Virus record (IMG/VR): IMGVR_UViG_3300019884_000006 | Span: 1 to 36,455 of that record | Strand: one strand, 5' to 3' | DNA: 36,455 bases | Source: a virus | Shown: positions 21,679-34,057 of the stretch, piece after piece | Numbering within the stretch: position 1 is the stretch's first letter | Layout: every line of letters starts with the position of its first letter | Notes under the pieces: model-generated | What the model saw: only the letters and a program-made list of their open reading frames with translations | Told to the model about the DNA's origin: nothing | Database searches by the model: none | Program-made: the position numbers and the translations under genes

Positions 21679-22917
21679 TTACGAGCAAATACGAATCGCA
21701 AATTCGGGGTTAATTGCGACACCGCAAATAACATCGATACGATCTAATTGTTCATAATTTCTAATATCAGCGCCGAGAGAATAGGTCATTGCTAATTTGT
21801 ACAAGTCAGAATAACGGGTTACTGCTTCAACCCCACCGCGCAATTCTTTAATTGGAGGCGCCGCAAATACAACGGCTTGAGTATGATACGCAAGAGATAC
21901 ATTATGAGAATCTCTCAATAAAATTTGCGCACCATCAGGAATAGCAGCAGAGATATTTTGACGAGCACCATCAATAACAATGGTTGGATTAACGGGAATA
22001 CTTGCAGTACCACCACCGCTAGCAATGACGGTCTCTGTAACAACAAACTGTGCGCGCTGTTCTAATGGTTCGTATGTCAATGGATTAACCATAAACACAC
22101 CGGCAGCATCATCAATTTCGATAATATCGCCAATATTAAATGCGACAACACTTGCGACTAATCCGCTAACTTCAATCGTATTACCACTAACAATCGGGCC
22201 GTTAGTTACAATTCCGCCCAATTTAAAGCCAGCAGGGGGTGATCCACCAGCTTCACCAGCACCAGCAATTTGACGAGTCAAAAAGTTAGTTTTGAAGAAG
22301 TCAAAACCTGATAAATGACCCACAAAACCGTCAATCAATGCGCCGGTATTAACGGTATTATTGAAAGTATTGTAAAGATCATTAGAAAGGTTAGCGGCAA
22401 TACGTGGGCCAACACCCGCATAGCGTTTTCCATCTTCTGGAATCGCTAATTCAGTCATGTAAGCATCAGCATTTAAGATCGTATTAAAATCGACAGGCAC
22501 ACCTGGCGTACCAACTGCTTGATATGTCTTAGTTTGAAATTCGCTAGCAATAAAGCGTTCAACCATATTACCTAGGCGCTTTGCACGAGGTGCATTTGCC
22601 ATTTCAAGATATGGTTCGTCACGAGCGCGATCAAAGGTTAAATTAAAACCTGTGTACTCGAGCATGATACGGAATTGTTTGCTGATTGTTAGTGGTCGAA
22701 TAACCTGTACGCGTGCTTCAGAAGTTGCGCTTGCACCTTCACCGCCCAGATATCTTTCTTCTAAACGATAGTCTAAGGTTTGACCTGTTGCAAAGCGTAG
22801 ATTTTTGAAGTCGCCTTCGAGGTTTCGGTTAGATGTTCTTGCGAATGATAAACTGTTCCAGAAGCGGACGAACACGTCGTCCAAAACGTATTGTGATTCC
22901 CTAAATAGATTAGGCAT
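21679..22917 (-). CDS. Major capsid (coat) protein, P22 gp5 family
   Basis: 412 residues (P22 coat 430). The start MPNLFRESQYVLDDVFVRFW and the block EYTGFNLTFDRARDEPYLEM fit the P22-type HK97-fold coat family, as do the C-terminal block YSDLYKLAMTYSLGADIRNY and the last residues GVAINPEFAIRICS. An insertion-domain-like part lies at about 225-330 (GGSPPAGFKLGGIVTNGPIV). GGGAG precedes the ATG. First gene of a long minus-strand operon driven by a near-consensus promoter (23042-23070). In related phages the scaffold gene is directly upstream; here a 5.3-kb block on the other strand separates them. Confidence 0.85.
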   Translation of the reverse strand: MPNLFRESQYVLDDVFVRFWNSLSFARTSNRNLEGDFKNLRFATGQTLDYRLEERYLGGEGASATSEARVQVIRPLTISKQFRIMLEYTGFNLTFDRARDEPYLEMANAPRAKRLGNMVERFIASEFQTKTYQAVGTPGVPVDFNTILNADAYMTELAIPEDGKRYAGVGPRIAANLSNDLYNTFNNTVNTGALIDGFVGHLSGFDFFKTNFLTRQIAGAGEAGGSPPAGFKLGGIVTNGPIVSGNTIEVSGLVASVVAFNIGDIIEIDDAAGVFMVNPLTYEPLEQRAQFVVTETVIASGGGTASIPVNPTIVIDGARQNISAAIPDGAQILLRDSHNVSLAYHTQAVVFAAPPIKELRGGVEAVTRYSDLYKLAMTYSLGADIRNYEQLDRIDVICGVAINPEFAIRICS

Positions 22918-23128: not shown

Positions 23129-23347
23129 ATGATTAGGAAGCCAAAGACAAAAACTTTAACCATTCGTATAACACCTGCAAACAAAGAATTACTCAAAACT
23201 ATTGCGGAAAATGAAGACCGTTCAATGGCAAGTATGATAGAAATTTTTATTCGTAATTATCGTAAACAAAATATTTTTGATACATCTTCTGCGAAAATTC
23301 CAGTTTGCATTCATGGTTTGGTGTCACATTGCAAGGTGTTTAAATAA
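23129..23347 (+). CDS. Ribbon-helix-helix protein (3), first gene of the inserted cassette
   Basis: 72 residues. A beta strand (TKTLTIRITP, 7-16) is followed by two helices (ANKELLKTIAENEDRSMASM, then IEIFIRNYRKQ), as in CopG/Arc-type repressors. A tail of about 22 residues with two cysteines and a histidine (VCIHGLVSHCKVFK) could bind metal, which is unusual for this fold. It is transcribed away from the coat gene; between them lies a palindrome that overlaps the coat promoter. Likely regulates itself and perhaps the coat operon. Confidence 0.72.
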   Translation: MIRKPKTKTLTIRITPANKELLKTIAENEDRSMASMIEIFIRNYRKQNIFDTSSAKIPVCIHGLVSHCKVFK

Positions 23348-23704
23348 ATGAAAACAAAAACGTTTGAAATACGGGATAGAGCAACATTTATTCCCGTTGT
23401 TGCTGTAAAACTTTCGTATGATGAAAATGAGAATGAGAATGATAGATATTTATTAGGTCGCTGCGGACTTGGGTTGTTAGGATCATTTGATATTGCTCTG
23501 TTTCAACTTCAAACTGGTATAGGTTATTTTGATCCATACGAATGGAGCGGCGCACCAATTGTGCGAACAATGCCTGTTGCACACAAATACATTGAAGAAA
23601 ATTTTGATAAACTAGACTCAGGTGCTGTAATAGATGTTGAGTTTATTCTTGGCGAGACTACAACACCTAAGAAAAGCGAAAAGTTTGAGACTGGGCCTTA
23701 TTGA
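23348..23704 (+). CDS. Conserved phage protein, 118 aa
   Basis: Opens MKTKTFEIRDRATFIPVVAV, and the end of the domain VRTMPVAHKYIEENFDKLDS is followed by GAVIDVEFILGETTTPK. This combination is a phage family I have met repeatedly without assigned function. The gene starts directly at the stop of the ribbon-helix-helix gene. Compact alpha/beta protein with no membrane segment. Ends within four bases of a TTG that could start the next frame, but the better start lies downstream. Confidence 0.7.
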   Translation: MKTKTFEIRDRATFIPVVAVKLSYDENENENDRYLLGRCGLGLLGSFDIALFQLQTGIGYFDPYEWSGAPIVRTMPVAHKYIEENFDKLDSGAVIDVEFILGETTTPKKSEKFETGPY

Positions 23705-23721
23705 TATTTGAAGGTAAAAAA

Positions 23722-24000
23722 ATGAACCAAAAATTTAAGAAATTAATCGATAAATTGCAAGATAACTTACAAGATATGACATTATCTTTTTTATATAAAC
23801 ATTTAGAAGATGAAGAAAATACGTCTGATGTTTTAAATATAATTTTAAGTTCGCACCTATCTTCATGTTTTACTCTAATGAGCCAAGTATCTAAAGAACA
23901 TCCGAAAATTTATGAAGAAGTAGAAGAATTTATAAAAAATATTAATAAGGCTATTTCTGAACAATCACAAATTATGAGCGTAGAGATTAACATTGAATGA
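23722..24000 (+). CDS. Helical acidic protein, 92 aa
   Basis: ATG at 23722 with GAAGG in front; the frame is open upstream to a TTG at 23701 without a good site. All-helical (KFKKLIDKLQDNLQDMTLSF, then YEEVEEFIKNINKAI). Its TGA overlaps the next ATG (23997-24000). Not recognised. Confidence 0.6.
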   Translation: MNQKFKKLIDKLQDNLQDMTLSFLYKHLEDEENTSDVLNIILSSHLSSCFTLMSQVSKEHPKIYEEVEEFIKNINKAISEQSQIMSVEINIE

Positions 24001-24230
24001 AAAATTTCCTAAAACAATTATTCTGCAATCATGACATTGTAGTAAAAACAGAAAGCCATTCGCCAGAACATGTTTTCATTGTGAAAAGCATAATTGAATG
24101 CACAAAATGCCAAAAAACATTCGCACAGCATCCTAATGCTCAATGTTGCTATGTGTTACATATTCACAGCAAAATTATGCAAGACCATTGGATAAATATA
24201 TATAAGGCAATGCAGCAACCACAACAATGA
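23997..24230 (+). CDS. Small Cys/His-rich protein, 77 aa
   Basis: CNHD at residues 10-13 and CTKC at about 36-39, together with a later CC and several His, suggest a zinc-binding fold. N-terminus MKNFLKQLFCNHDIVVKTES resembles the many small phage proteins beginning with a CxH-type knuckle. ATGA-coupled to the preceding gene. Confidence 0.55.
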   Translation: MKNFLKQLFCNHDIVVKTESHSPEHVFIVKSIIECTKCQKTFAQHPNAQCCYVLHIHSKIMQDHWINIYKAMQQPQQ

Positions 24231-24260
24231 ACTATAACAATATAAAGAGGTAAAATTTTG

Positions 24261-24764
24261 ATGGATAAGATATATCAATGGTATGAGGATGCGCGTGATT
24301 CATTAGCACGATACGAACTAGAAAAACAAAATCCTGAACGCCATGAAAGTATTGATGAAATGGAAAAGTGGATAAAAGATCGGAAAGAAATTGTACACAA
24401 TATTAATAAAAAACATCCAGAACTTAAAAAACAATATGAGCAAAAACAAAAAGAAAAATTAGCATTTGCCGAATTGAAAACCGAAATTGTAAAACTAATG
24501 TTTGAATTTACCAATAAATATGCCATAAAAGGTGAAAATTGTTTATATCCTAATGTGAGTAAAATTTTGGTAGATGTATTGGTTGCTTGTTTATCTGAGG
24601 CTCAATATCAAATAAAAGGCATTCCCGCATTTACTTCAAAACAAATCGATCATATATGTTATCAAATTGGCGAATGGTATCTGATGATGAAACCGTTACT
24701 CGAAGGACAACATAATTTAGGTCGCATGAAAGAAAAACTTAAAATCATGATATGTGGAGATTAG
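24261..24764 (+). CDS. Helical protein with coiled coil, 167 aa
   Basis: ATG at 24261 after AGAGGTAAAATTTTG; a TTG three bases earlier is equally open. The first 75 residues form a charged coiled coil (EKWIKDRKEIVHNINKKHPE, LKKQYEQKQKEK); the rest is a helical bundle (VSKILVDVLVACLSEAQYQI). No membrane segment or metal motif. No family recognised. Confidence 0.55.
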   Translation: MDKIYQWYEDARDSLARYELEKQNPERHESIDEMEKWIKDRKEIVHNINKKHPELKKQYEQKQKEKLAFAELKTEIVKLMFEFTNKYAIKGENCLYPNVSKILVDVLVACLSEAQYQIKGIPAFTSKQIDHICYQIGEWYLMMKPLLEGQHNLGRMKEKLKIMICGD

Positions 24765-24766
24765 TG

Positions 24767-25021
24767 ATGGATGATTTAGTATTTATGTTTTGCCCACCTT
24801 TCTCTCAGTATAAAGAACAACCGACAGATCAATCAAAGTGTGAGTTAGTTGATTGTCCTACTTGCAAACAATCTATGTGGTTATCAGAGAAAAAAGATTC
24901 ATTAAAAAAGATAGGGACAGCTTTCGGAAAAGAGGTAATTTGTGAATGTTATGACTGTTTTACAAAAAGAGCAAAAGAAAATCCAGAATTAATACGTGAT
25001 CACAAGATGATTAATATATAA
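24767..25021 (+). CDS. Zinc-ribbon-like protein, 84 aa
   Basis: ATG at 24767, two bases after the previous stop, with GGAG upstream. Cys pairs CPTC and CECYDC, about 35 residues apart, indicate a zinc ribbon similar to small phage DNA-gyrase-inhibitor-like or DksA-like proteins, but the sequences between do not allow a family call. Hydrophilic, cytoplasmic. Confidence 0.55.
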   Translation: MDDLVFMFCPPFSQYKEQPTDQSKCELVDCPTCKQSMWLSEKKDSLKKIGTAFGKEVICECYDCFTKRAKENPELIRDHKMINI

Positions 25022-25033
25022 AAATGGAGATAA

Positions 25034-25483
25034 ATGATGGACAGCATTACAAGTATTTCAAAAGACCATTACGAGTGGAAAGTTAAGTTTTCTAAAAAGA
25101 TGATTGCATGGAATGGTATTTGGTTACTATTCAGTTCGGCAGTCACTTTTTATGATCTGATCACATTAATTCATGACCATAATTATTTAAACGGAATTCC
25201 ATTTGGAATGATGCTGATGACATCTTTATGGTCATTTTTTTATTTACTTGATTCGCTACGTGAGCTAAAAACAGACAAATCATATCTTAAGTTTCAAACA
25301 GAATTACACGAAAACCAATTAGCATCTAGCGAACGTCAATCGTATTTGTACCAAAAACAACTGTATGAGCAAATGATAGCTAAAATGGAAAAAACAAAAA
25401 AAGAATCTCATAACGCAGATTGGAACTCCACTGCCGCATCAAGCATGGTTCATGATGACCCTGGCAAATCGGATGAGGAATAA
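25034..25483 (+). CDS. Membrane protein with two transmembrane helices and coiled-coil tail
   Basis: 149 residues. Hydrophobic helices at about 26-46 (NGIWLLFSSAVTFYDLITLI) and 54-74 (IPFGMMLMTSLWSFFYLLDS), then a Gln/Glu/Lys coiled coil (YLKFQTELHENQLASSERQS) and an acidic end. GGAGATAA precedes ATGATG. The topology (two helices, long cytoplasmic tail) could fit a holin-like or a superinfection-exclusion protein, but its place in an early-type cassette argues against a simple holin. Function unknown. Confidence 0.6.
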   Translation: MMDSITSISKDHYEWKVKFSKKMIAWNGIWLLFSSAVTFYDLITLIHDHNYLNGIPFGMMLMTSLWSFFYLLDSLRELKTDKSYLKFQTELHENQLASSERQSYLYQKQLYEQMIAKMEKTKKESHNADWNSTAASSMVHDDPGKSDEE

Positions 25484-25486
25484 AAA

Positions 25487-25882
25487 ATGAACCTTGAAAA
25501 TCAATGTGTAAGTTTAGAGCTAGCCAAAAAATTAAAAGAGCTTGGAATTGAGCAAAATAGTATATTTAATTGGGAATATTACGATGAGCAATGCTATGCA
25601 ATAAAATATTTTCCATATTCAATACTTCCCGACAATGTTAATAAATTTCAATTATATTCAGCCTTCACCTCTGACGAGCTTTTTGAAATTCTATTCCAAC
25701 AAAATTACGATCATTTAGAGGAAACTGGATATTTAGAAATTACAACTGAAAAAGTTTATCGATCAACTGGCGATTTTTATCGGATAACAAATAATTTAAC
25801 CGAGCATCTTATAGATTCACCAAAACTCGCCGATTGCTTGGCCGAATTACTGATTTTAGCCAAAGAACAAGGGTTGGGATGA
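25487..25882 (+). CDS. Conserved phage hypothetical protein, 131 aa
   Basis: The pattern LAKKLKELGIEQNSIFNWEY, later YSAFTSDELFEILFQ and a C-terminal helix LADCLAELLILAKEQGL resembles a widespread phage/bacterial family (AKKL-x-ELG-x-x-Q-x-S/T-x-F-x-W ... AFT-x-x-EL-x-x-x-LP ... A-x-AKMLIYLIE-type helix) with no known function. Separated by three bases from the preceding gene. Confidence 0.65.
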   Translation: MNLENQCVSLELAKKLKELGIEQNSIFNWEYYDEQCYAIKYFPYSILPDNVNKFQLYSAFTSDELFEILFQQNYDHLEETGYLEITTEKVYRSTGDFYRITNNLTEHLIDSPKLADCLAELLILAKEQGLG

Positions 25883-25885
25883 CCT

Positions 25886-26101
25886 ATGAGTGAATTTACT
25901 TGTTATAAATGCCAACAAACATACGTTATGCGAAATGACGAAGAATGGAACAACAAGAAAGCAGCAGAAGAATTATTAACTTTACATCCTGAATCAAAAA
26001 ACGATTCCACAGATATTTTATGTGATGATTGTAACGAAGAATTTAAAATATGGTTTGCCACTTTGACCGATGAACAAAAGAGAGAGATGCGAAATGGATA
26101 A
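25886..26101 (+). CDS. Small zinc-ribbon-like protein, 71 aa
   Basis: CYKC (about residues 6-9) and CDDC (about 46-49) define a zinc ribbon with a helical middle (NNKKAAEELLTLHPESKNDS). Phage proteins with exactly this FTC-x-x-C ... ILCDDCNEEF pattern are common and unassigned. Overlaps the next start by eight bases. Confidence 0.65.
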   Translation: MSEFTCYKCQQTYVMRNDEEWNNKKAAEELLTLHPESKNDSTDILCDDCNEEFKIWFATLTDEQKREMRNG

Positions 26102-26201
26102 TCTCAAAATAATCGGGATATGGATTGCAACATTTTTTATCTGCTTAGGCATAATTATTATGACGTGTAATCTGGTAACTCCAACTAATTGGCATTTTTA
26201 A
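26094..26201 (+). CDS. Single-pass membrane peptide, 35 aa
   Basis: MDNLKIIGIWIATFFICLGI with a continuous hydrophobic helix (about residues 5-25), then a short polar end. GAGAGATGCGAA precedes the ATG within the preceding gene. Three such tiny membrane proteins occur in this cassette (also 27530 and 27618). Confidence 0.5.
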   Translation: MDNLKIIGIWIATFFICLGIIIMTCNLVTPTNWHF

Positions 26202-26212
26202 TTAAGGAATAT

Positions 26213-26482
26213 ATGAAAGTAAAATACCATAAACCAAAAAACACGATTGAAAAAATAACCGAAGTTTACTGTTTTGTTTCAGTTGATGAAAGAGGCGAAG
26301 GAATAATAGGTCATTCAATGGAGATACCTGAAACTGGTCAACAAATGATGATGCCTTTTGTCTGCGCAGATAAAGCACGAATGGAATCACTTAAACCTTT
26401 GGCTAAAAAAATGTCTTTAGAATCTGGAATGAAAGTAAAATTAATAAAGTTAACCAACAGAGAAGAACTTGAAGTTATTTGA
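26213..26482 (+). CDS. Hypothetical protein, 89 aa
   Basis: ATG at 26213 with AAGGA four bases ahead; a longer frame from TTG 26189 overlaps the membrane peptide. Beta-rich start (VYCFVSVDERGEGIIGHSME), a CADKARMESLKPLAKKM helix and a final strand (KVKLIKLTNREELEVI). Family not certain, though the ISVDE-x-G-x-EGI pattern recurs in phage early genes. Confidence 0.6.
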   Translation: MKVKYHKPKNTIEKITEVYCFVSVDERGEGIIGHSMEIPETGQQMMMPFVCADKARMESLKPLAKKMSLESGMKVKLIKLTNREELEVI

Positions 26483-26491
26483 GGAAAAATA

Positions 26492-26698
26492 ATGATGCAA
26501 CCAGAAGATTTAGATTTCAGCAACCTAACCAAAGAGCAATTAAAAATATATAAAATTGCTTTTTCTTCATATAACCAAGGAACAATTGATACGGGAACCA
26601 TAATAATGGAATCTTTTAAAGCTGTGATAGAAAAATCAATAGAAATGTATGACAAAAAAATAAAAGAAATTGATGAGATTTTGGGGAAGGATAATTAG
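26492..26698 (+). CDS. Hypothetical helical protein, 68 aa
   Basis: Starts MMQPEDLDFSNLTKEQLKIY after GAGGAAAAATA. Two helices, acidic; ends immediately before the next ATG. Not recognised. Confidence 0.55.
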   Translation: MMQPEDLDFSNLTKEQLKIYKIAFSSYNQGTIDTGTIIMESFKAVIEKSIEMYDKKIKEIDEILGKDN

Positions 26699-27025
26699 AT
26701 GTCGCTGTATTATAAACTTGATAAAGCTAAAAAAGCTTTGCCATGTAATGCGCGCGAATGGGGATTGCAGCGAGAAGAAATGCGTGATAATGGTACAAAA
26801 ATTATAGCTTTAGGTACTATACATGGAAAACGTATTTCTACAGTATGGATTGGAATTAATAGCGAATCGGATTTTACATTACCACCATTAATATTTGAAA
26901 CAATGATATTTGGAGATAAAGGCGAAACAGAAGATTATTGTGAGCAATATTCAACATGGGATGAAGCGTTAGCGGGTCATCAACGTGCTATTGAATGGGT
27001 TAAAACTGGGTGTAAAGATGACTGA
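26699..27025 (+). CDS. Conserved phage protein, 108 aa
   Basis: The sequence HGKRISTVWIGINSESDFTL and the C-terminal YCEQYSTWDEALAGHQRAIE, then WVK, match a frequent phage family (ISTV-[WF]-[IL]-GI-[ND] ... PPLIFETM-[IV]-FG ... QY-STW-[ED]-EA-x-AGH-x-x-[AM]-V/I-x-x-V) of unknown role. This domain is among the better conserved members of the cassette. Overlaps the next gene by eight bases. Confidence 0.7.
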   Translation: MSLYYKLDKAKKALPCNAREWGLQREEMRDNGTKIIALGTIHGKRISTVWIGINSESDFTLPPLIFETMIFGDKGETEDYCEQYSTWDEALAGHQRAIEWVKTGCKDD

Positions 27026-27299
27026 CTTTGACGAACGCATTAATGATATAGAAAAACGTTTAATTGCTTTGGAAACAGGATTTATTCAAAGAATAGGTCA
27101 TTTAGGAGAAACTTTGCATGTTTTACAAGGTGAAAATAATGATTTAAGAAAATGTAATTTGCCGCATGTATGCCCAATTTGTTCAGGTCGCGGCAGCCCA
27201 TTTATTCAAAGTGATACATGCGCCGCAGCACCTAGAAAACATTGGATTGAAACAAATCCGTGTATTGCCTGTGAAGGCAAAGGAATAGTATGGAGATAA
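27018..27299 (+). CDS. Protein with DnaJ-type CxxCxGxG zinc motifs, 93 aa
   Basis: ATG at 27018 overlaps the preceding stop; an in-frame ATG 33 bases earlier lies deep in the previous gene. Residues 1-45 form a coiled coil (ERINDIEKRLIALETGFIQR), followed by CPICSGRG and, about 30 residues later, CIACEGKG, like two repeats of the zinc centre of DnaJ. No J-domain here; the separate J-domain protein at 34931 lacks zinc motifs. May be a small zinc-dependent adaptor. Confidence 0.65.
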   Translation: MTDFDERINDIEKRLIALETGFIQRIGHLGETLHVLQGENNDLRKCNLPHVCPICSGRGSPFIQSDTCAAAPRKHWIETNPCIACEGKGIVWR

Positions 27300-27301
27300 G
27301 T

Positions 27302-27361
27302 ATGCAACAGGCTCAACATCGGTTCAGGATGAACCTATTTTGGAATATAAAACATGAATAA
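27302..27361 (+). CDS. Candidate 19-residue peptide
   Basis: MQQAQHRFRMNLFWNIKHE with GGAGATAAGT right before the ATG, overlapping the start of the next gene by eight bases. The ribosome site is excellent, but the size is minimal. It may serve mainly to couple translation of the next frame. Confidence 0.3.
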   Translation: MQQAQHRFRMNLFWNIKHE

Positions 27362-27533
27362 TGGACATTTTAGATATCCATGTGGATGCTATATGATGAT
27401 AGAAAAATCTGGAACTGGAATTGGAAAATCTTGTGATCAATGTAAATATTTACAAGCAAAAGATAGAGAGCAATATACTGGGATAAAACAAATTAATTCT
27501 GAAAAAATTGATTTGAGATTTTACAAAACATGA
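27354..27533 (+). CDS. Small cysteine-motif protein, 59 aa
   Basis: MNNGHFRYPCGCYMMIEKSG, with CGC and later CDQC giving a possible zinc site. Ends in an ATGA overlap with the next tiny gene. Unrecognised. Confidence 0.5.
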   Translation: MNNGHFRYPCGCYMMIEKSGTGIGKSCDQCKYLQAKDREQYTGIKQINSEKIDLRFYKT

Positions 27534-27613
27534 ACTGGCCAGAAGCGATTGCAATTTCGATTGTAGCAATTTCTTTTGCTGCCGTGTGGGTGGTTATAAT
27601 AATATGGGGATAA
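27530..27613 (+). CDS. Membrane peptide, 27 aa
   Basis: MNWPEAIAISIVAISFAAVW plus VVIIIWG: one hydrophobic helix through nearly the whole length. Overlaps the previous gene by ATGA. Candidate small membrane regulator; too short for firm calling. Confidence 0.4.
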   Translation: MNWPEAIAISIVAISFAAVWVVIIIWG

Positions 27614-27617
27614 TTAA

Positions 27618-27713
27618 ATGAGTATTATCTTTTGTGTAGGTTATGCATGTTTCATTATTTCTTGTTGTGCTGCTATGATTATTATAGCTTTGTCTAGTAG
27701 AATTCCTCTATGA
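27618..27713 (+). CDS. Membrane peptide, 31 aa
   Basis: MSIIFCVGYACFIISCCAAM followed by IIIALSSR: one hydrophobic helix with four cysteines. Four bases after the previous stop, and its own stop overlaps the next start (ATGA at 27710-27713). Confidence 0.4.
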   Translation: MSIIFCVGYACFIISCCAAMIIIALSSRIPL

Positions 27714-27886
27714 CAAAATGGATTAGTGTTAAAGAGCGAATACCTCAACCATATAAAATTGTTTTAATATTTTTACCCGATGAAACTATACCTATCAGAA
27801 TGTGTCAATTTAATGATTACGATATCATGGAACGACTGGGAATAACCCATTGGATGCCACTACCGGAGAAACCTAGTGATACTTGA
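27710..27886 (+). CDS. DUF551-like protein, 58 aa
   Basis: MTKWISVKERIPQPYKIVLI at the start and ITHWMPLPEKP at the end are the two halves of the DUF551 signature (WISV-x-ERLP ... THWMPLP). DUF551 proteins are common in phage and prophage early regions; function unknown. Short of the usual 65-110 residues but with both ends intact. Overlaps the next gene by 11 bases. Confidence 0.75.
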   Translation: MTKWISVKERIPQPYKIVLIFLPDETIPIRMCQFNDYDIMERLGITHWMPLPEKPSDT

Positions 27887-28181
27887 AGAAGCACTCACAG
27901 CCTTACGCAACGGCGCTAAAATCAGACATCCTACAATGGAACCGGATGAATATTTTCAAGCATGTATAGTTGGAATTATACACTGTGATATTCCAGAAGA
28001 TGCACCAATATCAATCGTTAAAATGAAGGGTGATAATGTACATATTGATATGGTTCCTAGATTGCCATTTTATGAACATACAGATTTGATAGATAAATAT
28101 CCTTTTTTAAGAGAAAAAATAACTTTTCCGACTATAAACTTACTTTTGATTATGTCTGACGAATGGGAAGTATTAAAGTGA
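27876..28181 (+). CDS. Phage protein, possibly distantly Tad2/DUF2829-like, 101 aa
   Basis: GTG start at 27876 with GGAG ahead. The opening LEEALTALRNGAKIRHPTME recalls DUF2829/Tad2 proteins (F-x-EAL-x-x-L-x-x-G-x-K-[VI]-x-R), and the end LLLIMSDEWEVLK recalls their D-x-L-A-x-DWE-[VI]. The middle (SIVKMKGDNVHIDMVPRLPF) differs from typical Tad2, so this may be a separate family with the same ends. Tad2 proteins sequester cyclic ADP-ribose signals of the Thoeris defence. I regard the link as tentative. Overlaps the next gene by GTGA. Confidence 0.5.
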   Translation: MILEEALTALRNGAKIRHPTMEPDEYFQACIVGIIHCDIPEDAPISIVKMKGDNVHIDMVPRLPFYEHTDLIDKYPFLREKITFPTINLLLIMSDEWEVLK

Positions 28182-28366
28182 AATGGAATGACCCAAAAAA
28201 ACAACTTCCTAAAGATGATGCAGAAGTATTAGTACAAACTGGTAGACTATTTAAAACAAGAAAATTTGCTTTGTTTATAGAAAACAGCTTCATGCACAGA
28301 GGCGAAGATATTACACATTGGGTAACGCATTGGATGAAAGTTAAAAAACCCACCTACCAAATATAA
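28178..28366 (+). CDS. DUF551-like protein (2), 62 aa
   Basis: GTG at 28178 overlaps the previous stop; GAAG lies upstream. An ATG at 28163 lacks a site. WNDPKKQLPKDDAEVLVQTG and the end ITHWVTHWMKV fit DUF551 (W-x-x-x-x-x-x-LP ... VLV ... V-THWM). Second member in the cassette, separated from the first by one gene. Its stop codon lies in the loop of the terminator hairpin. Confidence 0.6.
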   Translation: MKWNDPKKQLPKDDAEVLVQTGRLFKTRKFALFIENSFMHRGEDITHWVTHWMKVKKPTYQI

Positions 28367-28376
28367 TAGGTGGGTT
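28347..28376 (-). terminator. Intrinsic terminator at the convergent junction
   Basis: AACCCACCTA and TAGGTGGGTT pair perfectly (10 bp, 10-base loop). On the minus strand the stem is followed by TTTTTT, giving a standard terminator for the terminase-to-Acb2-like transcript. On the plus strand it follows an A-run and has no T-run after it, so it is weaker there but could still end the cassette. Confidence 0.85.
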
Positions 28377-28386
28377 GGCACCATAA

Positions 28387-28653
28387 TTATTTATGAACCT
28401 GACATGGTAATTCATCAACTTTTATTGTGTGCATTCCACGTTGGTTATATTTATCATTCTTAGCAAGCGCAGACCCAAAGTGCATTAGTGCCAAGTGCAA
28501 TGCACGAAACGCCAAAGTTTTTTCTGCACAATTAGGCGTTTCATCATCCATCATTACTGCAATATCTTTAACTGCACTATAAAATGATTGATGAATTTTT
28601 CTGTCATGCTCGTCAAATGTATGTCTATCAAAAATATCATCTACTAAACTCAT
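28387..28653 (-). CDS. Acb2/Tad1-hairpin-like protein, candidate anti-CBASS sponge, 88 aa
   Basis: Helical protein with H-x-x-KIHQSFYSAVKDIAVM, then P-x-x-AEKTLAFRALHLALMHFG, then SALAKN. The Acb2/Tad1 hairpin family (including T4 Vs.4) has the same plan: a first helix with F-x-x-L/A-x-x-I, the segment P-x-x-RE-x-[ST]-LA-x-[TR]-x-L-x-x-A-x-M-[WH]-x-x-[AS]-A-[IL]-A. Family members bind cyclic di- and trinucleotides made by CBASS and thereby block host defence; some also bind Thoeris signals. Typical length is about 70-100 residues. Lies at the end of the packaging operon, right before the terminator, eleven bases after the scaffold gene. Recognition is from memory of the pattern. Confidence 0.6.
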   Translation of the reverse strand: MSLVDDIFDRHTFDEHDRKIHQSFYSAVKDIAVMMDDETPNCAEKTLAFRALHLALMHFGSALAKNDKYNQRGMHTIKVDELPCQVHK

Positions 28654-28664
28654 TTACTTATCTC

Positions 28665-29639
28665 CTATCGATTAGACTTATGACGACTTCTAACAGTCGC
28701 CAAACGCTTTGCATCTGCTTTTGCTAGCAAATCATCCCCACTCGTGTCCTGCTGTTTAGGCGTTACTTTTGCTGTTGAATCTTCTTTTGTTCGTCCTAAA
28801 GGTCGAGGTGTCTTTGTTATGGGTTTATTACGCCGCATACGCTCCTCAAGTTTGCCCATTTCGACTGCCTTAACAGTAGGGTCTCGTAATTTTGAGATAC
28901 GTTCAAGCTCTTGCGGATGACGCTTGCTGGCGGCATAAATAAAAGCTGTGGGGTCTGACATTCCACGTAATGATATCGTCATAGCGTCATCAATAGGCTG
29001 CTTGCCCACAACTTCTCTAAAGTCATCAAAACGCGTCATACCTTGAGTAAACTTTACTTGAAACTCACGCTGCGCTCTAGCTTCGTACTGTTCGCGTATT
29101 TTCTGGTGTTCTTCGGTTTGCATATTGTTAACGGTTTGTTTTACAAAGTGGGATAATTGCTGTTCCCAAGCCCCTTCGTCATCGGGATTATATTTAAAGT
29201 CTTTAACTGCTTGCTGAACATCACGATTAGCACCTTGATTAGCTAATTGTTGACGCAATATTTGCAATTCCTGGTCACGCTGTTCAATTTCACGTTGAAA
29301 CTGCTTTTCTTTTCTCTCAAGTCGTTCTTTTACACCTGGACTCATACGCTCTTTTTTATTTCCGTACTCATCTTCATCATAATCTTCATCTTTTTCAGGT
29401 TTTTCTGATTTTTCCTCTGATTCATCATTAGATTCTGATTCTGCTGCTAAATCTGGCGTATCATCTTCATAATCATCATCATGATTTGGCTCATTTTCCG
29501 GTTTTTCTGATTCATCCTTTTCCATTTCTTCAATCGGTTCTTTTTCTTCCTGAATTTTTTCCTTGTGTTCTGGTGTTGCCGGTTGTTGTGAATTACCTAT
29601 ACCCATCAATAAATCATCAATGCTGCTTATATTGCTCAT
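28665..29639 (-). CDS. Scaffolding protein, 324 aa
   Basis: Directs coat assembly and leaves before packaging. Length is near P22 gp8 (303). The first 110 residues are extremely acidic and disordered (NEPNHDDDYEDDTPDLAAES, DESEEKSEKPEKDEDYDEDE), then comes a coiled coil (VKERLERKEKQFQREIEQRD, QELQILRQQLANQG) and helices through about 270; the C-terminus is very basic (RLATVRSRHKSNR), as expected for the coat-binding end of P22-type scaffolds. GAGGG precedes the ATG. Between portal and coat in gene order, though the coat is 5.7 kb away. Confidence 0.75.
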   Translation of the reverse strand: MSNISSIDDLLMGIGNSQQPATPEHKEKIQEEKEPIEEMEKDESEKPENEPNHDDDYEDDTPDLAAESESNDESEEKSEKPEKDEDYDEDEYGNKKERMSPGVKERLERKEKQFQREIEQRDQELQILRQQLANQGANRDVQQAVKDFKYNPDDEGAWEQQLSHFVKQTVNNMQTEEHQKIREQYEARAQREFQVKFTQGMTRFDDFREVVGKQPIDDAMTISLRGMSDPTAFIYAASKRHPQELERISKLRDPTVKAVEMGKLEERMRRNKPITKTPRPLGRTKEDSTAKVTPKQQDTSGDDLLAKADAKRLATVRSRHKSNR

Positions 29640-29658: not shown

Positions 29659-32013
29659 TTATTGAACCTTTGAAGTCAAAATTTTGACCAAATTGTCAGT
29701 ATGCGCGATATCCTTATCGGTTTCAGTGCGATGCGATTCAGACATAAAGCGCATTTTGCTTTCTTCAACATCACCCGCTAATTCTAATTGCGCTATTTGA
29801 AGCTTCATGCGCTCAATCTCGATTTCAGCTTGTGATTCTTTCTGTTTAAGTGCCAATTCTTGCATTTTGATTTGTAGTTGAGCTTGTTGAAATTGGGCCT
29901 GCTGTTGCATTTGCTGTTGTTCTGGTGTTGGGCCTTGTGCGCCTTCTTGCGGCATCTCGCCCGTTTTACCTGCTTCAATAATTGCTGGTGATACACGCGT
30001 TTTGAGTCGGTTTTTAATCTCAATTGTGTTGGCGAGCGGTAAGTTTTCAGCGTATAAATCAGCAACTAGATTGAATGTGGTTGGATCGATCTGTAATACG
30101 TCACGCAGAGATTGAAGCGCTTGCTCTTTCTGTCCTTCATAAGATGGGCCAGGTTTTAATCTAACTTGATATGTTCCTTTGCGAATATCATTCTCAATAT
30201 TCTCACCGTACTCATCCGTTTGACGATTCACGGTTACATTTTTCATACCTTTATCGGGCATCATGAGAGTCAATACACGCTCGGTATCATATACGCGAGG
30301 AATCATCTCATTTACTATCTCACCACCCGTTGCAATAGCTCGATTAATTGAATTAAAAAACACATACGTAGCATAGCTGCCTTGTCTTGTTCTTGCGTCA
30401 ATTGCAACGCCAGAAGCTTCATCGCCATTATTACCCATTCGAGCAGGATAAAGGCCCGTTGAAGTATATAAATCTTCGATGGCAAGTTGATATTGTTGAA
30501 AGAGTGATTGTGACAATTCTGGGGGTTTGATTTGTTTTGGCTTATTTCCTTCGGGTGACTCGTCATAAGTTAACATCCCTTGAATAGCTGTGGGGTCTTT
30601 CCAATTACGTTGAGTGTCAAGACTTGATACATTTTTCTTTGACCCGATCCACTGGTCGTACCGACTTACTTTAAGAACATAAGCTGATTGTGTTCTGAGA
30701 TAGTTAATGTATCTTTGAGTATCTCGGCAATCTCCAAAGAATGAACGCGTAATTTGCTTGCCTGATTTATCGTAATAGCTGTTATTATCAACGAAAACGA
30801 GCGGCAATTGCTCACTTGGGAATTCTGTTTTATCAAGCTCATATTCACCCGCTATACGATAATGAACGATTTTATGTTTCTTTGACGGTCGTTTTTCTTC
30901 GATGCGTACTTGCTCGCCGTCATCCCACAGCATCATTGTGTCAATGCTTTCTTTTTCTTCATCCATCGGTGCGTTTTTTGCGCTTGGCGTAACATCAACG
31001 CCCTTATCTTGCGGCAATATGTCGTGATCACCTTGCATGCCAAACCCTTGCGGGTTATACGATTGGCCTTGCGGTTGTTCGGGTTGTTGCTGTCCCATTT
31101 GGGATAATTGCGCAACTAAATCTTGAGACGGGCCGCCCATTCCGCCTTGACTCTGCTGCATCATTGGTGCCATTTGCGCATCCATTTCAGCATGACGTGC
31201 ATTCATCTCACGCGATTTCTCGATAAGATCGTCCATTTCTTCTTGATTTAACACATTACCGTTTGAGAGTTTATACAGCGTATCTTTCTCATACTTGCGC
31301 ACGTAATGATCGATGATCGTGATTGATTCATCGTCCGCCCACATAAACGGATTACCTGACTCGTTAGGTTGCACTGCAAGCGCTATTTCTTCTTTAGACT
31401 GCGTTATGCTGCTGGTTTTCATGATGTTTTGTTCGACATCTTTGCCGTACATATCTTTAAACTTTTGTCGTGTCATGCGGGATAAATAGCCGCAAACTGT
31501 ACCGTCTGTTTTGTTTATAGACTCAGCGCCTACGTCCCAATAACACCGCGTTGCATCTTTGAAATACCAATACTGAATATCTTGATCAAACGACTTAGAG
31601 TATGCATAATCAGTACCGACACAAAACGCACCAAATCCGCCAATGGCTGCTTGACCTGCTGCTACTTGATACGCAATCGTTGCCGATGTTGAAAACATGA
31701 TATCTTTTGTGATTATTTCGCGAAGTGATGCGACTTTGTCATCGCATCCGGTCATCGGGACTACTTGTAACTGAGGGGTATTTTGCTGCTGTTCGCCGAG
31801 TAGCGCGTTTGCCATCGTGCCGAGTTTATTAGACGTTAAGGGCACCTTGCGGTACGTCTTAATCATGTCATCTTCTTCTTCGTCAGACCATTGAGAGCCG
31901 AGAACAAACTCGTGCATAGTATGATATAGGTCGATGTTTTGTTTGAAACTAGCGTAAAACTTTTCGTATGCTATACGAGCTTGACGAGCGATCTTCTCAT
32001 TCTGCTTAGCCAT
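29659..32013 (-). CDS. Portal protein, P22 family, 784 aa
   Basis: Forms the dodecameric DNA channel at the capsid vertex. The N-terminus (IDLYHTMHEFVLGSQWSDEE at 27-46 and VPLTSNKLGTMANALLGEQQ at 57-76) is the P22-portal signature; the wing and stem follow, and the end is a long coiled coil rich in Gln/Met (about 685-760; QQQMQQQAQFQQAQLQIKMQ), matching the P22 barrel. P22 gp1 is 725 residues. The surplus is a disordered Gln/Gly/Met/Pro-rich insertion at about 275-345 (MMQQSQGGMGGPSQDLVAQL; QPEQPQGQSYNPQGFGMQGD). AAGGA lies before the ATG. Confidence 0.88.
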   Translation of the reverse strand: MAKQNEKIARQARIAYEKFYASFKQNIDLYHTMHEFVLGSQWSDEEEDDMIKTYRKVPLTSNKLGTMANALLGEQQQNTPQLQVVPMTGCDDKVASLREIITKDIMFSTSATIAYQVAAGQAAIGGFGAFCVGTDYAYSKSFDQDIQYWYFKDATRCYWDVGAESINKTDGTVCGYLSRMTRQKFKDMYGKDVEQNIMKTSSITQSKEEIALAVQPNESGNPFMWADDESITIIDHYVRKYEKDTLYKLSNGNVLNQEEMDDLIEKSREMNARHAEMDAQMAPMMQQSQGGMGGPSQDLVAQLSQMGQQQPEQPQGQSYNPQGFGMQGDHDILPQDKGVDVTPSAKNAPMDEEKESIDTMMLWDDGEQVRIEEKRPSKKHKIVHYRIAGEYELDKTEFPSEQLPLVFVDNNSYYDKSGKQITRSFFGDCRDTQRYINYLRTQSAYVLKVSRYDQWIGSKKNVSSLDTQRNWKDPTAIQGMLTYDESPEGNKPKQIKPPELSQSLFQQYQLAIEDLYTSTGLYPARMGNNGDEASGVAIDARTRQGSYATYVFFNSINRAIATGGEIVNEMIPRVYDTERVLTLMMPDKGMKNVTVNRQTDEYGENIENDIRKGTYQVRLKPGPSYEGQKEQALQSLRDVLQIDPTTFNLVADLYAENLPLANTIEIKNRLKTRVSPAIIEAGKTGEMPQEGAQGPTPEQQQMQQQAQFQQAQLQIKMQELALKQKESQAEIEIERMKLQIAQLELAGDVEESKMRFMSESHRTETDKDIAHTDNLVKILTSKVQ

Positions 32014-32066: not shown

Positions 32067-33590
32067 TTAAATCAGCATACCCGCGTGATGCTCAGGCAGC
32101 TTATTCGGCTTATAGCCGCTATCTGTAACATATTCTCCGCCATAAAACGTCAATGTCAACGAAACTGCCGTGTCGGGCGACAAGCAGCCACGCTTTTTCA
32201 AATCTTCTGTGCTTTCAATCTGCAATTTATCACTTGAATCGTATTTATACCCTATGTTGATCAAATCTGTTTGTAACTCATCGCTATCCGGTATTTCAAC
32301 GCCCATCTCTTGCAATAACCAATCTCGTGTGCGACTCCATAATTCAGCACGACAGTTTTTGTACTTATGTCGTTCTTCGGCCCGTGTTGCGACATTCACA
32401 CCGATCACAATATCGTGATAACCTAATTCATGCAATCGATCTACAACGCCTGCACCAATTCCTATGCAATCAATACATACACGGCGCGGATGTTCTCTTT
32501 CTATTATACGCTTAACAATGCCAGCAAGCTCCATTGTATCGATATTATAATGCGTTTCAAGTTTAAATGCTTTACGTCCTTTACGTCTAATAATTGCTAT
32601 TCTATCGTCACCCATCCGCGCCGGATCAACGCCTACAACAAGCGGGGCTTCACTTTGAACAATAGTCGTGCGCGCCTTTTGCACGCATTCAACATGTATA
32701 AAAGTATCCGTGATTGAAGATAAAAACGCTTCTTCATCCGTGAATGGATATTCCTGTCTGAATTTGCGACATTTTTGCTCATAATCGCCCTTGATATCTT
32801 GTAGCTTAATCCTGCGCCAATTTAAATGGCCTTCTTTTAACCCGTTGGCGCCAAATTTTGCAAACCACTCGCGTTCCTCCTCGTTTGGTTTGAATGTGGC
32901 TTCATTTATACAATATTCATCCTGCCAATACCACGGCACAAATATCGCTTGATATCGCGTTTTGCCGTTCTTTGCTTCCATCCAGTCTAAGTAAAAATCG
33001 TTATCAATACCATTCGCTGTTGACTCTTTTATAATTTCAGTATCTTCTATTTCAGCAACAGTGTTCATTAATCCCATGCCAATTTTTGCCGCATCTTTGT
33101 AGAACGCATATTCTGATAGATGCAAATATTGATTAGTCATACCTCGACCTACTTCAGTACTTCCGGCTGTACCAACGCGATAACCTGAGCCGAGGTTATT
33201 ATACATAAGCGTGTTGTCGTTTTTTTTGTCCGGTTGCGGAAATAAACTAGTGTCAAGATGCTCGCTATAACGCTTTGTCATCTCAAAGATAGCGCGCGTA
33301 GCGTCTGATAGATGTGTTAGAATAAATGCTTTCTTGCCGCGTTTAGTGATGATTTTGTGAAAATAGCGTGCTTGAATTAGCGTAGATATGCCTTGCTGTC
33401 GGCCTTTGAGTATGAGCGCACGTACTTTGCCTGTGACTTTGTATTGCGTTTCTAATCTGTCATGCACATATAATTGCGCACGATTAAAAACAAATTGACG
33501 CTCAGCGCCTGATTTGTCATGTATAATCAGAAAGTTTTTAGCAAAAAGAGGTAGGGATTTTAATGTGCGTATGAGTTTTTCTTCATCCAT
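32067..33590 (-). CDS. terL: Terminase large subunit, 507 aa
   Basis: ATPase and headful nuclease that packages DNA. Walker A-like LKGRQQGIST at 61-70; Walker B with catalytic Glu in LHLSEYAF (156-163, E160); the coupling motif ESTANG at 189-194. The RNase H-like nuclease has D322 in VVGVDPARMGDD (318-329) and D374 in CIDCIGIGAGVVD (372-384). P22 TerL is 499 residues, so it is full length. Its ATG shares a base with the TerS stop. The family (headful P22/Sf6-type) suggests terminally redundant, circularly permuted virion DNA, consistent with a circular assembly. Confidence 0.93.
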   Translation of the reverse strand: MDEEKLIRTLKSLPLFAKNFLIIHDKSGAERQFVFNRAQLYVHDRLETQYKVTGKVRALILKGRQQGISTLIQARYFHKIITKRGKKAFILTHLSDATRAIFEMTKRYSEHLDTSLFPQPDKKNDNTLMYNNLGSGYRVGTAGSTEVGRGMTNQYLHLSEYAFYKDAAKIGMGLMNTVAEIEDTEIIKESTANGIDNDFYLDWMEAKNGKTRYQAIFVPWYWQDEYCINEATFKPNEEEREWFAKFGANGLKEGHLNWRRIKLQDIKGDYEQKCRKFRQEYPFTDEEAFLSSITDTFIHVECVQKARTTIVQSEAPLVVGVDPARMGDDRIAIIRRKGRKAFKLETHYNIDTMELAGIVKRIIEREHPRRVCIDCIGIGAGVVDRLHELGYHDIVIGVNVATRAEERHKYKNCRAELWSRTRDWLLQEMGVEIPDSDELQTDLINIGYKYDSSDKLQIESTEDLKKRGCLSPDTAVSLTLTFYGGEYVTDSGYKPNKLPEHHAGMLI

Positions 33591-34057
33591 TAATCCACCA
33601 GTTTGTCAATCAACATCTCAATCACAGTTTTAGTATCGGCCTTTTCTTCTTCTGCGTGTTGTCCATATTGCTTAGGCAACAGCTTAGATGCAAGCCATTT
33701 TCTAGTGTCAATACGTAAGCGGCTACGTGCAATAAATTCTGTGTTGCACAGTGCGTTTCCATCATCATCGAAAATCGTGTCATTTGAATCATTATCAGCT
33801 ATATCCAAGCATTCTTCAGCTAATAAATCTGCCTGAAAAAGCTTAGCCCGTGCGTATCGAGAGGAAAAGTCAGAGTGTTTATAACGCCACAAATTAATAG
33901 TTGTTCGGTCTGGTAAATCGTCATGTAGAGCGCAAAGTTTAGCCAATCCTACTGTTGAAGTTGCAACACGTTGACAAATTAATTCTGCAATTTCTTCACA
34001 ATAAAGAGTTGGTCGCCCCATTTTAACTTTTTTTTCAGGACATTTATGCGCTGTCAT
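33590..34057 (-). CDS. terS: Terminase small subunit, 155 aa
   Basis: Recognises the pac site and forms a ring that stimulates TerL. KKVKMGRPTLYCEEIAELIC at the start is the GRP(T/S)-x-Y entry of Sf6-like small terminases; a helix-turn-helix follows (LAKLCALHDDLPDRTTINLW), then a helical region (RYARAKLFQADLLAEECLDI) and a flexible tail for TerL contact. Length is similar to Sf6 gp1 (about 140). The pac site is often inside this gene. Four-gene packaging order (small ORF, TerS, TerL, portal) is conventional. Confidence 0.85.
   Translation of the reverse strand: MTAHKCPEKKVKMGRPTLYCEEIAELICQRVATSTVGLAKLCALHDDLPDRTTINLWRYKHSDFSSRYARAKLFQADLLAEECLDIADNDSNDTIFDDDGNALCNTEFIARSRLRIDTRKWLASKLLPKQYGQHAEEEKADTKTVIEMLIDKLVD

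Follow-up and report, generated by a model that had tools for sequence, protein, structure and literature searches.

The window, by which we mean the whole stretch of 36,455 nucleotides analysed here, is an IMG/VR virus record in its own right (IMGVR_UViG_3300019884_000006). Its minus strand carries a unit in which genes for the small and large terminase subunits, the portal and the scaffold follow one another, with an 88-amino-acid (88-aa) open reading frame (ORF) last (Table 1). This ORF begins with ATG 11 bp past the scaffold stop, is preceded by a Shine–Dalgarno sequence (AGGAGA) and has a 13-pair stem and T run downstream, in agreement with the preliminary description, which had placed it as the closing gene of the packaging operon and had quoted two peptides that are both present in the translation. 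Comparisons of the window copy with its relatives (computable pairs with unsaturated synonymous sites) gave dN/dS values of 0.11–0.25, so the ORF is a real gene, and it is under purifying selection. In the window, approximately 5 kb of small plus-strand ORFs separate this gene from the capsid gene, compared with a scaffold–capsid stretch of approximately 0.2–2 kb in relatives; none of the nine ORFs scanned in that block had a confident Pfam match.

Table 1 Features of the window and of the scaffold–capsid interval in related loci (locus label before the colon).
Feature	Position	Strand	Basis
Predicted divergent Acb2/Tad1-hairpin protein, 88 aa	28387..28653	-	ORF, Pfam/PHROGs, profile-profile, AlphaFold2
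Terminator-like 13-pair stem-loop and T run, just 3′ of the 88-aa gene	28347..28376	-	pattern scan
Scaffold gene, upstream neighbour of the 88-aa gene in one unit	28665..29639	-	phrog_8865 E 7.5e-13
P22-like portal gene	29659..32013	-	PF16510 319 bits
Terminase large subunit gene	32067..33590	-	phrog_2 E 1.3e-29
Sf6-like terminase small subunit gene	33590..34057	-	PF20901 107.8 bits
Major capsid protein gene, which in relatives bounds the cargo slot on its other side	21679..22917	-	phrog_283 E 3.4e-35; slot analysis
Small ORFs between the 88-aa and capsid genes	23129-28366	+	
Phe13 codon, column of the Acb2 N-terminal aromatic (T4 Y8; canonical F/Y), kept in 9/10	28615..28617	-	alignment columns
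Tyr25 codon, helix-1 column with Arg in 63/63 canonical, Tyr in 8/10 of the query family	28579..28581	-	alignment columns
Arg50-His58 codons (RALHLALMH), in place of canonical TKLEEAMFW	28480..28506	-	alignment columns
Acb2_Tad1_hairpin protein directly behind the scaffold gene	L211:5158-5379		36.8 bits, above cut-off
DNA-methyltransferase-like genes	L002:5300-6232, L003:1391-2443, L009:976-2277, L206:11351-12094		sequence motifs only
DUF6378 protein	L218:7400-7702		106.8 bits
MALDIRL family members	L173:5286-5540, L174:11398-11637, L178:7479-7727, L207:11384-11626, L243:11402-11674		
phrog_1761/5120 examples	L010:5935-6126; L092-L171		

The interval between scaffold and capsid genes was examined in 74 loci, mostly supplied by portal relatives, and slot counts use the 54 in which both genes were seen. 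A hairpin protein occupies the slot in 11 of these 54 related phages, comprising the query family (ten sequences, with relatives taken from IMG/VR) and one further phage, L211, whose protein is the only one in the slot to pass the PF24729 cut-off. Six of the 54 loci had first been fetched with the 88-aa protein itself, of which L001, L007 and L008 were recovered again by the portal search; with this sampling bias removed, 8 of 51 carry a hairpin protein, and L007 and L008 encode an identical query-family protein. Most relatives do not carry the 88-aa gene while their scaffold and capsid genes persist, several have a gap of only about 180–220 bp, and other slots contain DNA-methylase-like genes, a DUF6378 protein or other small ORFs. 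The 88-aa gene is accessory cargo, which favours a counter-defence role over an essential one in head assembly. A third small helical family (MALDIRL...ALARTxNEQACQ) also lies behind the scaffold gene in this slot; as an Acb2 branch it is no more than a lead (weak PF24729 scores of 18.8–22.3 bits in three of the four members scanned, and profile–profile comparison with Acb2 no better than shuffles), and a PDB search with this family did not find Acb2.

The preliminary description had put the protein forward as a candidate for the Acb2/Tad1 hairpin family, a membership that holds as distant homology between profiles but not for the lone sequence, whose best Pfam match, PF24729 (Acb2_Tad1_hairpin), reaches 18.8 bits (E = 0.0019) against a curated cut-off of 27 bits. 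Scores of its relatives range from no match to 23.1 bits. NCBIfam returned no match to the 88-aa protein, PDB searches by sequence (single or with the family-only profile) gave chance matches only, with Acb2 absent, and a family-profile search of bacterial genomes found no relatives; Fe-S_assembly, tried as an alternative family, was rejected at 13–14 bits, far under its cut-off. The best PHROG for the query (E = 3.4e-5) and its relatives is phrog_1454, which includes gene 1 of the Mycobacterium phage Bernal13 and gene 46 of the Gordonia phage Anon, both clear members of PF24729 (74.9 and 78.3 bits, respectively). In tblastn against 50,697 phage records, only eight records had a match at E ≤ 1, all of them Gordonia and Mycobacterium phages, and the two distinct proteins checked from these records (Anon and Bernal13) are both Acb2-hairpin proteins.

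Profile–profile comparison exceeded every shuffled control. Using hhalign, the ten-member family profile matched a canonical Acb2 profile built on 63 sequences at 91.5% over 64 columns (best of 60 column shuffles, 1.9%), and an earlier six-sequence profile matched it at 88% (at most about 3% in 100 shuffles, and 0.2% when reversed), the match running collinearly from the N-terminal aromatic motif through the end of helix 2. When a canonical Acb2 hidden Markov model (HMM) made without the query family was run blind against 13,220 stop-to-stop frames from the 74 related loci, all 10 matches at E ≤ 10 fell in the scaffold–capsid slot, and the reversed-sequence control on the frames of these loci gave none. 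A profile merging the query family with canonical Acb2 retrieved Acb2 homolog 43 (2e-8) and Tad1 (about 1e-3) from the PDB, matches that are driven by the canonical rows. Distant homology to the Acb2/Tad1 hairpin superfamily is thus well supported by these profile comparisons; classing the protein as Acb2 proper would nevertheless be unwarranted, given its curated score and the residues found at its dinucleotide site.

Structural models weakly agree with an Acb2 fold, in a way that is partly circular. AlphaFold2 with the family alone (6 sequences) gave a pLDDT of 62, and with canonical Acb2 rows added it gave a core pLDDT above 90, a mean of 79.6 and a pTM of 0.58. The predicted helices are a short N-terminal one (residues 3–7) and two long antiparallel ones (residues 15–38 and 43–64), a short-plus-two-long arrangement that also appears in the family-only model and corresponds to the layout described for Acb2 (PMC10419184); the tail from about residue 70 is weakly predicted. 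Neither model contains a strand, unlike Tad1 with its N-terminal β-sheet. Foldseek found no Acb2 match for the family-only model. For the second model, the match was first in rank but not significant: T4 Vs.4/Acb2 (7UQ2) came first with an E value of 2.5 and a TM-score of 0.51, Tad1 was also listed, and the structural Z of 6.3 to Acb2 was equalled by unrelated helical hairpins.

The replacement of the usual LEEAxMWANAA helix, noted from the window copy at the outset, is real and family-wide in the alignment columns. Among 63 canonical homologues, the helix-1 Arg is present in all 63 and the helix-2 Thr in 59, and the E, W and N of the motif are invariant or nearly so. In the query family, Arg is replaced by Tyr (Tyr25; 8 of 10), Thr by Arg (Arg50; 10 of 10), Glu by His (His53; 10 of 10) and Trp by His (His58; 9 of 10), and the canonical N column is mostly Gly (Gly60). 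R50, L52 and H53 are invariant within the family, H58 is kept in 9 of 10, and most of the E-K turn is retained. Our literature search found no open text giving the pocket residues of Pseudomonas Acb2, so only those of T4 Acb2, from the Panoptes papers, were used: T68 is a position of the cyclic dinucleotide (CDN) site, with T68M in Bas35 reducing binding (PMC12657230), and Y8 and F82 have tested functional roles (PMC12657218). In our reading of the alignments, Arg50 occupies the column of T68 and Phe13 that of Y8; at the Acb2 dinucleotide pocket, the aromatic residue is kept (Phe13), but Thr has become Arg50 and the helix-1 Arg has become Tyr25. In the solved Pseudomonas p26 Acb2, too, the sequence has neither the W nor the E-E of LEEAxMW, so loss of that motif alone is compatible with a sponge; more telling is that the Thr and the basic residue of helix 1 are both lost. 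Positive charge may have moved in compensation to the facing helix, where the Arg is invariant.

Taken together, these observations make it somewhat probable, in our view, that the 88-aa protein is a divergent Acb2-type hairpin sponge with a rewired pocket, carried as optional cargo immediately after the scaffold gene in a lineage of P22-like podoviruses. Acb2 is a hexamer that sequesters cyclic nucleotides (PMC12043709, PMC10419184), and it is by analogy with Acb2 that we infer oligomerization, ligand binding and a counter-defence role, and that a sponge of changed specificity becomes the best explanation. The helical hairpins would assemble into a small oligomer that sequesters a host-made nucleotide immune messenger, leaving the defence effector switched off. 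With the helix-1 basic residue lost to Tyr25, Arg50 in place of the helix-2 Thr, and His53 and His58 further along, such a pocket would probably bind the common cyclic dinucleotides weakly or not at all, and the ligand would be another messenger (a cyclic trinucleotide, a gcADPR-like molecule or one yet to be described). The initial proposal of a cyclic-oligonucleotide sponge that defeats CBASS thus keeps its basis in distant hairpin homology but not in the pocket, where most canonical residues are replaced, and its functional part stands by analogy. A sponge is favoured by the 91.5% profile match, the confinement of blind HMM matches to the slot, the L211 protein, the patchy presence of the gene, the methylase-like neighbours in the slot, the alignment of Arg50 and of the aromatic Phe13 with T68 and Y8 of T4 Acb2, and the second model (core pLDDT and first rank of T4 Acb2), and it is weakened by the sub-cut-off Pfam score, the non-significant structure matches and the lost ligand-site residues. 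A place in the head operon also implies late expression, which would be late for blocking signalling and counts against a sponge; Bernal13 gene 1, which adjoins terS, is an earlier example of a packaging operon that includes an Acb2 homologue. A search for SMODS and AGS_C gave no matches in one assembly of approximately 2.1 Mb holding a related phage, a result that weighs little, as the link of this assembly to the host of the present phage is not established.

An alternative that we regard as unlikely is that the hairpin fold has been kept without nucleotide binding and that the protein acts alongside the scaffold in head assembly, as a minor virion component or as a late regulator. The gene comes directly after the scaffold gene in one transcription unit, gene starts overlap or abut in L001–L003, and the canonical pocket residues are lost, all of which would fit such a role; however, most relatives sharing the scaffold, portal and capsid do without the gene, several with gaps of just a couple of hundred base pairs, and the same slot is elsewhere filled by unrelated genes or, in L211, by a canonical Acb2-hairpin protein. 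Quite unlikely, to our minds, is counter-defence by a hairpin-superfamily protein whose target is a protein of the host (a cyclase or an effector, for instance) and not a nucleotide: the accessory slot, the superfamily itself and a conserved set of residues (R50, H53, H58, K68 and Y69) that differs from known sponges are compatible with it, but the characterized superfamily members in the cited literature are nucleotide sponges (PMC12043709). That two short amphipathic helices resemble Acb2 by chance, for which the weak single-sequence scores, the commonness of small helical hairpins and the middling structural Z might speak, is already disfavoured and very improbable given a ten-member family, the shuffle and reversal controls, blind matches confined to the slot, and few tblastn matches, in Gordonia and Mycobacterium phages, of which the two checked are Acb2-hairpin proteins.

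Returning to a sponge of changed specificity, a related residue pattern is seen in phrog_1761/phrog_5120, a large function-unknown group (EKSAGLRKLLEAKDC; hundreds of phage records; the L010 protein is one member and has no Pfam match). These proteins share the P-[DN]-C-A-E-K-[ST] turn and have Arg at the Arg50 position, and their profile matches the query family at 74–85% over only 23–26 columns; unlike the query family, their helix 2 runs on as LLEAKDCxVRA. Against the canonical Acb2 profile they reach 79.8% along a brief helix-turn-helix segment (the highest of 100 shuffles was 6.5%) and may, on this similarity, be an unrecognized Acb2-hairpin branch. With Panoptes, a phage that sponges dinucleotides does so to its own cost, and the authors of that work suggest that the specificity of Acb2 may be tuned away by phages (PMC12657218). 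We offer, as a speculation that we regard as unlikely, that the query family and the larger phrog_1761 group could form an arginine-type Acb2-hairpin branch that has abandoned the dinucleotide site and would sequester another messenger, retaining a sponge that does not set off systems that guard dinucleotides, such as Panoptes; the scaffold–capsid slot of this podovirus lineage would then be a site where several sponge variants are exchanged. With its dinucleotide site naturally replaced, the 88-aa family allows a direct test of the proposal of the Panoptes authors, and if still a sponge, it would be a natural specificity variant that points to a further immune messenger.

Among known systems, Tad1 (Thoeris anti-defense 1; PDB 7UAV/8KBB) has an N-terminal β-sheet (PMC12043709), whereas the 88-aa protein is hairpin only, and it is the C-terminal hairpin of Tad1 that the merged profile matched (E of about 1e-3). 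The phrog_1454 proteins (Bernal13 gene 1 and Anon gene 46) are 34% identical to the query family over 64 hhalign columns, with a nearly invariant canonical TKLEEAMFWANAAIAR helix that is absent from the query family. Relative to canonical Acb2 homologues, the 88-aa protein differs at Tyr25, Arg50, His53, His58 and Gly60, has a four-residue deletion after the N-terminal aromatic and ends its core in an invariant K-Y, thereby widening the range of the Acb2 hairpin to a lineage in which a new and consistent set of residues stands in place of the known ligand site. In common with Acb2, for which our references were T4 Vs.4 (PDB 7UQ2), Pseudomonas phage p26 (PDB 8H2J/8IXZ) and Acb2 homolog 43 (PDB 9PTQ), it has the size, the helix order, the collinear N-terminal aromatic motif and the proline turn between the long helices, and it shares with canonical homologues the E-K-[ST]-L-A that opens helix 2.
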